Part shown: positions 59,334 through 63,860 of the stretch, in pieces | How positions within the stretch are numbered: position 1 is the first letter of the stretch | Layout of the letters: each line of letters opens with the position of its first letter | Assembly (NCBI GenBank): GCA_001515265.1 | Contig: LNDB01000001.1 | Location: 143,044 to 207,043, forward strand | Length of the DNA stretch: 64,000 bases | Direction: 5' to 3' | Source: Candidatus Dichloromethanomonas elyunquensis | GTDB taxonomy: Bacteria > Bacillota > Desulfitobacteriia > Desulfitobacteriales > Syntrophobotulaceae | Program-made: the position numbers and the translations under genes | The notes under the pieces: model-generated | The model's database searches: none | The model's input: the letters and a program-made list of their open reading frames with translations, nothing else | Told to the model about the DNA's origin: nothing

Positions 59334-59422
59334 AAAGAGGCCTCCAATCTATTATCTTTCCCCTCAAATAAGTATGCCTAACATTAAATATTTAGTCAAT
59401 ACTTGAACCTGCCAATTATTCA

Positions 59423-59559
59423 AAAAACAAAAACATCAGGAATCCACTCCTGATGCTTCATCAATTTTAAAAAGTACTTCATTGCCATGAAGCTCAATAT
59501 CATTATGGGGTGAATGATGGGACTTGAACCCACGAGTGCCGGAGCCACAATCCGGTGCG
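59423..59559. repeat. Distal att-type repeat: displaced 3' part of tRNA-His plus flank (copy A)
   Basis: 59423-59526 is identical to 61893-61996, and 59458-59559 is identical to 62078-62179. Within it, 59506-59559 reproduces the 3' 54 nt of the intact tRNA-His gene (anticodon arm to CCA) but lacks the 5' half. At 59560 the match to tRNA-His ends. A truncated tRNA 3' end as a far direct repeat is the classic scar of an integrative element in a tRNA gene. Confidence 0.85.
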
Positions 59560-60941: not shown

Positions 60942-61256
60942 CGATACTCTTCACCCCTAGTATATGCTGATTTTTTAAATACTATACTTATATATTAACC
61001 TTAACCTATATATTAATTCAAGTATTTTTATGTAAAATATTTATTATATTTTTTAGATCTAAAGTAGTAGTATACCGATGAAAGATAAATCTGAATGTTA
61101 CACAACTGCATTATGTTACATTCTTTAATCCATGGAACGCCCGGTACACCTGGCTTCCAGAGATTTTTATATATAAGCCTAGAAAATACGGTATTGGAAT
61201 CTGACATAGCTATTAACTTTGAAGCATTATGTCACATACAGAAAGGAGTTATCACA
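60942..61256. other. AT-rich noncoding stretch inside the tRNA-His element
   Basis: A divergent gap between the NTase-like gene and the integrase fragment. The reverse strand would hold the promoter of the NTase/XRE pair, but no clear -35/-10 pair was identified. The track ORF starting at 61095 runs through here only because its in-frame upstream part is open. Confidence 0.5.
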
Positions 61257-61447
61257 ATGGAATTTGTGCAGCCGATCCGGGATAAAAAGGCACTGGAAAC
61301 CATGAAAAAGCTCTTACGCTCATCAAACTTAAGAGATTATTGTCTCTTCGTTCTCGGTATCAATTCCGGATTGAGAATCAGCGACCTATTGACCCTTAAA
61401 GTTTCTGATGTCCTGGATGAGAAGGGAAAAATTAAGGATAGGATCAA
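61257..61447 (+). pseudogene. Tyrosine recombinase (integrase) fragment, middle region only
   Basis: About 63 codons beginning MEFVQPIRDKKALETMKKLLR and including [27 protein letters not shown], the Arg-containing motif I of tyrosine recombinases. The original ribosome-binding site (AGGAG) and ATG are present. Similarity stops near 61447, before the catalytic His-x-x-Arg and Tyr, where the sequence switches to an inverted phage baseplate fragment. It is broken by rearrangement, not by a point mutation. Confidence 0.8.
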
Positions 61448-61620
61448 TAATAACAACCTTTACTGTCCCAGGCCCAGCATATAAGGGAAAGACTTTCACA
61501 CCTCCGACACCGGAAACTTCTTCTGCCCATTGCTCGTATTGATAGGCATTTCCCGAACTGCCGGCTGTATCGCATTCAGCCAATACTGAAACATAACCTT
61601 CATCTGGAATTACTTTTGTT
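61447..61620 (-). pseudogene. Phage baseplate J/gp47-like fragment
   Basis: The reverse strand encodes [57 protein letters not shown], matching the core of phage baseplate assembly protein J (GNAxxYxxWAxxVxGVGxxxVxPLxxGPGTVKV). It has no start or end of its own and abuts the integrase fragment, so it is a leftover of a contractile-tail prophage. The track ORF 61386-61583 covers part of it. Confidence 0.72.
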
Positions 61621-61624
61621 TCTT

Positions 61625-61759
61625 TTATTGTGAATGGTATTCATAGTCTTTCTGAGTGCGCACAGAACGTCCCTGAGCTGCCTTCTCGTTTAAAAATTGT
61701 TTCAACATGTCCTGCCAACCTATTGACTGAATGATGTTCCCTAAACGTTTTCTCGTCAT
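61625..61759 (-). pseudogene. Integrase N-terminal remnant (SAM-like core-binding domain start)
   Basis: A 44-codon [68 protein letters not shown] fits the N-terminal core-binding helix of tyrosine recombinases. The start is supported by GGGAGGT 6 nt before the ATG. It stops abruptly next to the baseplate fragment. It could be the 5' piece of an element integrase. Confidence 0.6.
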
Positions 61760-61892
61760 AAAAATACCTCCCATCGTTTTCTGGTTAAGAAACGCAAGGA
61801 GGATTTCAACCAAATAACACCTGATTTATTACCGTGCCGGACTAAGAATTTTCTACCATGCCGGACACCACCCAATTTTAAGCAATCATAAT

Positions 61893-61996
61893 AAAAACAA
61901 AAACATCAGGAATCCACTCCTGATGCTTCATCAATTTTAAAAAGTACTTCATTGCCATGAAGCTCAATATCATTATGGGGTGAATGATGGGACTTG
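61893..61996. repeat. Internal copy (B) of the tRNA-His-associated repeat
   Basis: It is identical over 104 bp to 59423-59526. It includes the last 19 nt or so of tRNA-His and its downstream flank, then breaks at 61997 into a GC-rich 75-80 bp segment (61997-62077) before copy C begins. Confidence 0.85.
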
Positions 61997-62077
61997 CTCC
62001 GCCCCTGCGGGGCTATCACGCCGGGGCGGGTAAATGCTCCCCTAGGTCGCATTTCCTTTTCCGCCCGTTCAAGTCCC
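61997..62077. other. GC-rich insert between repeat copies B and C
   Basis: An ~80-bp segment, far more GC-rich than its surroundings, with self-complementary pieces (CCGCCCCTGCGGGGC; CGCCGGGGCGGG). It splits the tandem repeat and replaces most of one tRNA-His copy. It could be a palindromic mobile element of the REP/MITE kind or an intergenic repeat; its identity is unknown. Confidence 0.5.
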
Positions 62078-62179
62078 TCATCAATTTTAAAAAGTACTTC
62101 ATTGCCATGAAGCTCAATATCATTATGGGGTGAATGATGGGACTTGAACCCACGAGTGCCGGAGCCACAATCCGGTGCG
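62078..62179. repeat. Proximal att-type repeat within intact tRNA-His (copy C)
   Basis: It is identical over 102 bp to 59458-59559. The repeat spans the 3' 54 nt of the functional tRNA-His and 48 bp downstream, so the gene is restored at this end of the element. Confidence 0.85.
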
Positions 62180-62202
62180 TTAACCACTTCGCCACATCCA
62201 CC
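62126..62202 (-). tRNA. tRNA-His (anticodon GUG), CCA encoded, integration target
   Basis: The reverse strand gives G-1 plus GTGGATG/CATTCAC acceptor, D-arm GGCGAAGTGGTTAACGC, anticodon arm CCGGATTGTGGCTCCGG (anticodon GTG) and T-arm GTGGGTTCAAGTCCCAT, ending CCCA. The extra G at -1 paired with C73 is the tRNA-His hallmark. It is 7 bp downstream of tRNA-Arg and probably cotranscribed with it. Confidence 0.95.
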
Positions 62203-62607: not shown

Positions 62608-62641
62608 AATTAGGCCTCCTGTCGTTTAGGAGACCTATTTT
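62608..62641 (-). terminator. Terminator after the small Gly-rich gene cluster
   Basis: AATAGGTCTCCT and AGGAGGCCTA arms with a short loop, followed by TTTTTCG on the minus strand; it lies 50 bp past the last of the four short genes. Confidence 0.8.
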
Positions 62642-62690: not shown

Positions 62691-62819
62691 TTAAAAGATT
62701 ACTCCAAGAGCGATTAAGATCAAGATGGCAATCGCAATTATTCCTACCCCATAATTGGGTGCGGCAACAACTACCGGTCTAGCCACAGGTCTGCAACAAC
62801 AACCGCCGCGTCCGTACAT
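62691..62819 (-). CDS. Small Cys/Gly protein with C-terminal hydrophobic segment (42 aa)
   Basis: MYGRGGCCCRPVARPVV... followed by GVGIIAIAILILIALGVIF at the C-terminus. It has a perfect AGGAGGT box 6 nt before the ATG and is too short for the ORF track. The overall layout (short Gly-rich head plus a single hydrophobic C-terminal helix) resembles small sporulation peptides of the YjcZ type, but no firm match can be claimed. The CCC triplet suggests disulphide or metal binding. It is last of five adjacent genes of the same style. Confidence 0.8.
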   Translation of the reverse strand: MYGRGGCCCRPVARPVVVAAPNYGVGIIAIAILILIALGVIF

Positions 62820-62864
62820 TTTTTTACCTCCTTTCGAGAAAAAACTCATCTTGGACTTATTGGA

Positions 62865-62981
62865 TTAAAATACGATTCCCATTGCGATTAACAAAAGAAT
62901 GATAACGACTACAATTCCAATCCCACAACCGCAGCCGCCACCGAAACTGCCAACGTAGCCTGCGCCTCCTTCAACAGCCAT
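62865..62981 (-). CDS. Small Gly-rich protein with hydrophobic C-terminus (38 aa)
   Basis: MAVEGGAGYVGSFGGGCGCGIGIVVVIILLLIAMGIVF. A ribosome-binding site AAGGAGGTG precedes the ATG. The last 18 residues (GIGIVVVIILLLIAMGIVF) are identical to the end of the next upstream 41-aa gene, so the two are recent tandem duplicates. It has two Cys residues in GCGCG. Confidence 0.82.
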   Translation of the reverse strand: MAVEGGAGYVGSFGGGCGCGIGIVVVIILLLIAMGIVF

Positions 62982-63030
62982 TTTGTACACCTCCTTAAAA
63001 AATTCTTCGGACAATAATGAACGTATTATT

Positions 63031-63156
63031 TTAAAAAACGATTCCCATTGCGATTAACAAAAGAATAATAACAACAACGATACCTATGCCGCAAAAGCAC
63101 CCGCTACCGCCGCCACCGCCGAATGTTCCGCCAAAGGTTCCGGCTCCAACTGCCAT
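63031..63156 (-). CDS. Small Gly-rich protein with hydrophobic C-terminus (41 aa)
   Basis: MAVGAGTFGGTFGGGGGSGCFCGIGIVVVIILLLIAMGIVF. A GGAGGTGA box lies upstream of the ATG. It shares both the MAV start and the C-terminal 19 residues with the 38-aa neighbour; the Gly-rich head differs in length. It has a CxC motif before the membrane-like segment. Confidence 0.82.
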   Translation of the reverse strand: MAVGAGTFGGTFGGGGGSGCFCGIGIVVVIILLLIAMGIVF

Positions 63157-63231
63157 TATATATTCACCTCCGTTTAGTTACTTAAAATGTGTCTATAGCT
63201 TCGTTTATAGATGAACCTTTAAGAGCTGTGT

Positions 63232-63369
63232 TTAAAAAATAACGCCAAGCGCGATAAGAATTAAAACTGCGATAGCAATAATTCCAGCCCCTGCACCAAT
63301 GCCTCCTCCGTACGCATTTCCGCCTGCGAAGGTTCCCGGATAGGCTGCTGCACCGTAAACTCCGTGCAT
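63232..63369 (-). CDS. Small Gly/Ala/Tyr protein with hydrophobic C-terminus (45 aa)
   Basis: MHGVYGAAAYPGTFAGGNAYGGGIGAGAGIIAIAVLILIALGVIF. AAAGGAGG precedes the ATG. The end IIAIAVLILIALGVIF closely matches the 42-aa gene (IIAIAILILIALGVIF), so the four short genes form two pairs. It lacks Cys. Confidence 0.82.
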   Translation of the reverse strand: MHGVYGAAAYPGTFAGGNAYGGGIGAGAGIIAIAVLILIALGVIF

Positions 63370-63532
63370 GCTTTTTTCCTCCTTTTAATTATTGTCTTGG
63401 TTAGGACTACTTCACAATATAGTATTCTCCCAACATTTTTTTGGTACTATTTGGTAATCAACAATACCTGATTTTTCAATTATCTATCGACAGTCTCATG
63501 CTTGTCTTTATGAGGATGAGCAGCTAGAAAAG

Positions 63533-63745
63533 CTACCAGCCATAGCCGCCGTAACCGGCGCCAGGTGCGTATCCGCATCCCCAGCCGCCCCAGCCGCCCC
63601 ACGCCCACCAACCAAAGAAGATAAAGATGATGATGATGATCCACCACCACCAACCTCCTCCCCAGGCCCAACCGCCGCCATAAGGGCCATAGCCGCCGCC
63701 ATAAGAGCCTCCGTAAGTGATTCCGGTTCCACCGAGAAGAGACAT
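63533..63745 (-). CDS. Gly/Trp-rich small membrane-associated protein (70 aa)
   Basis: MSLLGGTGITYGGSYGGGYGPYGGGWAWGGGWWWWIIIIIFIFFGWWAWGGWGGWGCGYAPGAGYGGYGW. One hydrophobic core, WWWWIIIIIFIFFGWW, is flanked by Gly/Tyr/Trp-rich arms. GGAGGTT lies 5 nt before the ATG. The composition is extreme, but the strong ribosome-binding site and the company of four similar small genes support it. Overlapping ORFs in other frames (63480, 63508) are shadows of this biased sequence. The context suggests a spore-coat or envelope structural peptide. Confidence 0.78.
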   Translation of the reverse strand: MSLLGGTGITYGGSYGGGYGPYGGGWAWGGGWWWWIIIIIFIFFGWWAWGGWGGWGCGYAPGAGYGGYGW

Positions 63746-63860
63746 AAAATAACCTCCTTCCCTTCGATAATACGTTTTTCTGTCCCTATTTTATGAATAT
63801 AATTGGTAAATGTTTCCTGATGCCTTGCTGTTTAACAGCGTTAAGACATGCCACCGGTTC

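Follow-up and report, generated by a model that had tools for sequence, protein, structure and literature searches.

Little is known of spore envelopes beyond those of Bacillus and Clostridioides, and the smallest envelope parts evade annotation. SpoVM, an amphipathic, charged forespore-surface peptide of 26 aa, is made in the mother cell, marks the outer membrane of the forespore and has SpoIVA as its binding partner. SscA (YhzE), a B. subtilis protein of only 28 aa, is expressed late in the mother cell and reportedly influences how the spore coat is assembled. The closest known kind to the proteins described here is YjcZ, or tiny_TM_bacill (TIGR01732, PF09680), of the Bacilli. In a comparison set of 24 YjcZ-family peptides, taken by the TIGR01732 model from other genomes of the phylum, the proteins are tiny (most 26-46 aa) and consist of a variable Gly/Tyr/Cys-rich head followed by a near-invariant, uncharged hydrophobic tail of ~19 residues with Gly at both ends; they are present as many paralogues per genome, often in tandem. 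The yjcZ gene of B. subtilis is a member of the sigma-K regulon (PMC517825). In B. cereus, a list of sporulation proteins includes products of the yjcZ family (PMC8313275).

The window, as the whole analysed stretch of 64,000 nucleotides from Candidatus Dichloromethanomonas elyunquensis is called here, has its right end at the end of the contig. An ORF check of the window gives five small ORFs at 62691-63745, all on the minus strand and in the same direction. Four of these correspond to the tiny genes of 38-45 codons that the initial annotation had proposed (42, 41, 38 and 45 aa), and its strong ribosome-binding sites, seen as AGGAGG-like matches of 5-6 of 6 bases in all five genes, and near-identical hydrophobic C-termini of the four small proteins are likewise confirmed. 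The four are very probably spore-envelope proteins that occur nearly always in two matching types, A and B. The features of the region, from upstream to downstream, are as follows.

63787..63813, minus strand: putative sigma-K-type promoter of the Gly/Trp gene, AC (63813-63812), 16 nt, then CATAAAATA (63795-63787)
63533..63745, minus strand: Gly/Trp-rich protein, 70 aa, with WWWWIIIIIFIFF core, a separate family
63442..63456, minus strand: candidate operator, two TACCA half-sites 10 bp apart (63456-63452 and 63446-63442)
63418..63426, minus strand: putative -10 element of the A1-B1-B2-A2 unit, AATACTATA, a mother-cell-type variant of a motif enriched upstream of clusters
63232..63369, minus strand: A1, type A small protein, 45 aa, tail GAGIIAIAVLILIALGVIF
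63031..63156, minus strand: B1, type B small protein, 41 aa, tail GIGIVVVIILLLIAMGIVF
62865..62981, minus strand: B2, type B small protein, 38 aa, tail as in B1
62691..62819, minus strand: A2, type A small protein, 42 aa, CCCRPV head, tail GVGIIAIAILILIALGVIF
62611..62637, minus strand: intrinsic terminator ending the A1-B1-B2-A2 unit, 10-bp stem then ATTTTT

The gaps between A1, B1, B2 and A2 are only 75, 49 and 45 nt, so the four genes probably form a single transcript; 163 nt separate A1 from the upstream Gly/Trp gene, for which a promoter of its own is predicted. An in-frame alternative ATG start for A2 is present upstream at 62849.

The two types are defined by their C-terminal tails, GxGIIAIAILILIALGVIF in type A and GIAIVVVIILLLIAMGIVF in type B. 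From the loci fetched, 171 different genes of the order were collected (85 A and 86 B), and an A gene is adjacent to a B gene in 71 of 78 non-redundant clusters, with a median gap of ~40 nt; at L064, one of the seven unpaired clusters, an A-like neighbour had been missed by the search pattern. The order within clusters is mostly B-A, with A-B and A-B-B-A also seen. The A-B-B-A order recurs at another locus of the same genome (L030), in a second genome of its genus (L034) and in a different genus (L037), each time with a CCCRPV-type head on the second A as in the window. The four genes had been taken for two duplicate pairs, which holds in that they are of two types, but not as recent duplication, since A and B are old types. 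As judged from their tail profiles, the types are clearly related to each other: they align better than all 2000 column shuffles, and hhalign gives a probability of 95%, with 0 of 100 shuffles attaining the observed score. Family matches are present in 37 of 41 genomes (the own genome and 40 relatives), reaching 30 per genome, with 11 in four places in the own genome. One genome of genus g12 (G033) represents an unusual expansion, in which the A query matches ~30 times and the B profile 21 times.

The constant tail and variable head first noticed at this locus is a pattern seen across the 171 genes, in which the tails are under strong purifying selection and the heads vary. In comparisons across these genes, the fractions of tail codon positions 1, 2 and 3 that differ are 0.13, 0.05 and 0.60 in A and 0.16, 0.04 and 0.58 in B, with a tail amino-acid difference of ~10%. 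Change at 58-60% of third positions against 4-5% of second positions indicates purifying selection on the protein, and the constrained tails with silent third-position change therefore mark real proteins. Counted from the C-terminus, positions -6 to -10 are invariant in B, as are -5, -6, -8, -9 and -10 in A, while Gly at -4 is found in 83 of 83 B and 73 of 82 A peptides. The heads vary in length as well as sequence, giving total lengths of 20-76 aa for A and 24-43 aa for B.

In comparing these proteins to YjcZ, the same layout is seen, in that a Gly-rich variable head precedes a conserved hydrophobic segment with a near-terminal Gly, and size, uncharged tail, copy number and tandem arrangement are also shared. 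The A and B proteins look as if they resemble YjcZ in how they work, without falling within the family as it is modelled. The YjcZ tail reads GFALIVVLFILLIIVGAAW, and its consensus FALIVVLFILLIIVG is followed by neither the A nor the B tails; the A/B chain ends exactly at Phe in nearly all members, whereas YjcZ ends vary, and side-by-side tail types are absent from the YjcZ comparison set. When the five window proteins were scanned against Pfam and NCBIfam, weak chance matches only and no family model were returned. Plasmids searched with a YjcZ consensus yielded no match, which is probably due to low-complexity filtering. PF09680 has no match in the own genome (E = 0.001), and TIGR01732 exceeds its cut-off in 0 of 41 genomes, leaves the small proteins unmatched even at E = 10, and gives weak matches that fall at other places than the small-protein genes. 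In a 399-genome sample, no member of the order is over the TIGR01732 cut-off, a threshold passed by eight genomes from elsewhere in the phylum. In literature searches, no paper was found that deals with these genes in Desulfosporosinus or Desulfitobacterium or that mentions TIGR01732 by name. Two further peptides are comparable by description: SscA is likewise tiny, Gly-rich and hydrophobic but is not known as A/B pairs, and SpoVM is likewise a tiny peptide, its amphipathic and charged character differing from the uniformly hydrophobic A/B tails.

It is possible, though we hold it only tentatively, that the A and B proteins are true but distant members of YjcZ/tiny_TM_bacill, undetected by the curated models, and share its poorly understood role in spore-envelope assembly. 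The shared layout, copy number and frequent tandem arrangement speak for common descent, as does the B tail, which aligns with the YjcZ tail in register (9 of 2000 column shuffles are as good, and 2 of 150 in a second test) and reaches an hhalign probability of 87%, also in register. With the Gly columns fixed, however, 82 of 2000 shuffles do as well, which is marginal, and the A tail is no better than shuffled columns (341 of 2000; 38 of 150). An hhalign value of 87% for A against YjcZ was discounted, as only five N-terminal columns were aligned and the tail was not covered. The failure of both models to match A/B proteins and the lack of over-cut-off YjcZ matches in the order members searched further weigh against descent, and hydrophobic stretches of this kind converge easily. 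With the new proteins, it could be examined whether the YjcZ design has a single evolutionary origin or two.

Structural predictions for the small proteins are consistent with the earlier proposal of a shared membrane anchor carrying variable surface heads. AlphaFold, run on B2 with 16 related sequences, predicts a single helix at residues 19-34 with a tail pLDDT of ~88, while the head is unstructured (pLDDT about 45-52); the tail is uncharged, with a mean hydropathy of ~3 over 19 residues. The tails could instead be self-assembly segments, which the initial annotation had also considered, beta or amyloid-like, that build part of the coat or crust rather than span a membrane, as they are rich in beta-branched Ile/Val and devoid of charge, and Gly/Tyr/Cys-rich heads resemble those of other structural proteins. 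This is unlikely given the predicted tail helix, although AlphaFold is a weak test of amyloid, and given a hydropathy that fits a membrane span.

A link to sporulation comes from the distribution of the family. In the 74 available genomes of the order, to which Desulfosporosinus, Gracilibacter and Peptococcaceae bins belong, the B profile detects the small-protein family in 68, and a search with SpoIVA is positive in 67. The six genomes without a B match all lack SpoIVA as well, and the sole other genome without a SpoIVA match (G023) has B; this co-occurrence gives Fisher p = 4e-8, which is to be read as few independent losses rather than many independent tests, as the co-absences come from about two lineages, namely genus g4 and one member (G364) of a different genus, in which the congener G035 carries the family and SpoIVA alike. 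Neither sigma-K nor sigma-E-like matches were found in the six family-less genomes (sigma-K model, E <= 1e-30); G023 has a match of each kind, one of which is cut short by the end of a contig. The own genome has SpoIVA and a sigma-K above the model cut-off. Outside the order, the family is absent from 291 of 291 sampled genomes (300-genome phylum sample; matches in order members only). Across the 74 genomes, the family is thus confined to endospore formers, as its presence tracks SpoIVA and, where checked, sigma-K/E; it follows sporulation capacity throughout the order, and the link is strong. Conservation of the tail in relatives, on which the initial annotation had hinged, extends to the same 68 genomes, and its suggestion of spore-coat or envelope peptides is upheld as regards sporulation, from the presence of the family and its mother-cell-type promoters, with coat or membrane as the putative site. 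Three clusters (L030, L032 and L034) lie amid ordinary metabolic or regulatory, non-sporulation genes, so gene neighbours lend no support. In G035, the sigK homologue is in two pieces on different contigs (C96:27565-27954 and C120:2885-3235, model 5-121 and 110-226), a pattern that recalls the interruption of sigK by a skin-like element.

This distribution, in essentially all order members with sporulation genes and in none without them, makes it very improbable that the proteins are small hydrophobic toxins or bacteriocin-like peptides of type I toxin or antimicrobial clusters; their size, hydrophobicity, several copies and variable heads would suit such a role, but in the few clusters inspected, the neighbouring genes include none recognisable as serving immunity or export. 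An origin as chance ORFs in AT-rich intergenic DNA, which short length and the lack of a model match might suggest, is refuted by 171 homologous genes with near-invariant tails and silent third-position change, 159 of which have a ribosome-binding site matching at 5/6 or better, the 11 copies in the own genome and the family's presence across the order being beyond chance.

In analyzing the upstream regions, enrichment in motifs of mother-cell (sigma-E/K) promoter type is seen by sequence pattern. The promoter and WWCCA patterns were defined after viewing the sequences, so p-values drawn from the following counts are optimistic. The stricter pattern, AC N15-17 CATANNNTA, is present upstream of 9 of 34 distinct clusters compared to 0.09 in dinucleotide shuffles and 3 of 84 AT-rich control genes, while the looser [CA]ATANNNTA at -85 to -38 is found in 22 of 34 clusters (2.5 in shuffles, 13/84 controls). 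The -10 element of the window cluster has AATA instead of CATA, which leaves the choice between sigma-K and sigma-E or another factor uncertain there. Sigma-70 promoters show no clear excess in the region (6 against a shuffle mean of 4.0, sd 2.0). A further pattern, WWCCA repeated at 10 bp or paired with an inverted TGGWW, lies upstream of 22 of 34 clusters, compared to 3.5 in shuffles and 5 of 84 control genes, and these half-sites may be bound by a mother-cell regulator.

Taken as a whole, the evidence is probably best explained by an order-wide sporulation family whose helix-anchored heads are made in the mother cell and displayed in A + B pairs at the boundary of forespore membrane and coat. 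The four window genes would be unannotated members of this family of tiny proteins in the Desulfosporosinus/Peptococcaceae lineage, with A and B peptides produced in the mother cell late in sporulation. Each peptide would have a disordered Gly/Tyr/Cys/Pro head and one uncharged hydrophobic C-terminal helix, kept constant to insert in or pack on a particular surface, for which the outer forespore membrane and the innermost coat are the likeliest candidates. Above the helix lies a layer that the heads would fill or cross-link, and those rich in Cys may be the ones that cross-link. That A and B are so constantly paired suggests helices packing on each other as partners, with the types retained together for this reason, a contact that we infer from adjacency only; mother-cell expression, location and head cross-linking are likewise inferred. 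A bolder and more doubtful version makes A and B obligate partners in a two-component helical scaffold of the forespore outer membrane or coat, an independently arisen, clade-specific counterpart of YjcZ in which head variants determine what the layer consists of and a regulator dedicated to the system acts via the WWCCA 10-bp repeats. What is new here is the pairing of two tail types and their order-wide agreement with sporulation genes; an order-wide, multi-copy, paired protein set with no family model is missing where sporulation genes are missing. Candidates, promoters and a possible regulator site are thereby offered for Desulfosporosinus and its relatives.

The 70-aa Gly/Trp protein is present beside the four genes, as first described, but it represents a second conserved small family with no family model. 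Orthologues are found in five other genomes of the taxonomic family (L141-L145), covering several genera, and usually do not lie beside AB clusters. As these orthologues sit elsewhere in their genomes, the protein was rejected as a part of the AB system. The promoter predicted for the window copy is near-perfect sigma-K type; a sigma-K-type element is found at -66 to -69 in four of the five orthologues, with an imperfect -35 in the fifth, so that five of the six genes have such a promoter when the window copy is counted. The Gly/Trp protein would thus be separate, under the same kind of control.

In the window, a 114-nt repeat is also present in three copies at 59413-59526, 61883-61996 and 62033-62146 (100, 96 and 70%), the last of which overlaps tRNA-His (62126-62201), and ORFs resembling recombinase fragments are found at 61095-61484 and 61625-61813. 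Together these look like a decayed integrative element at tRNA-His.
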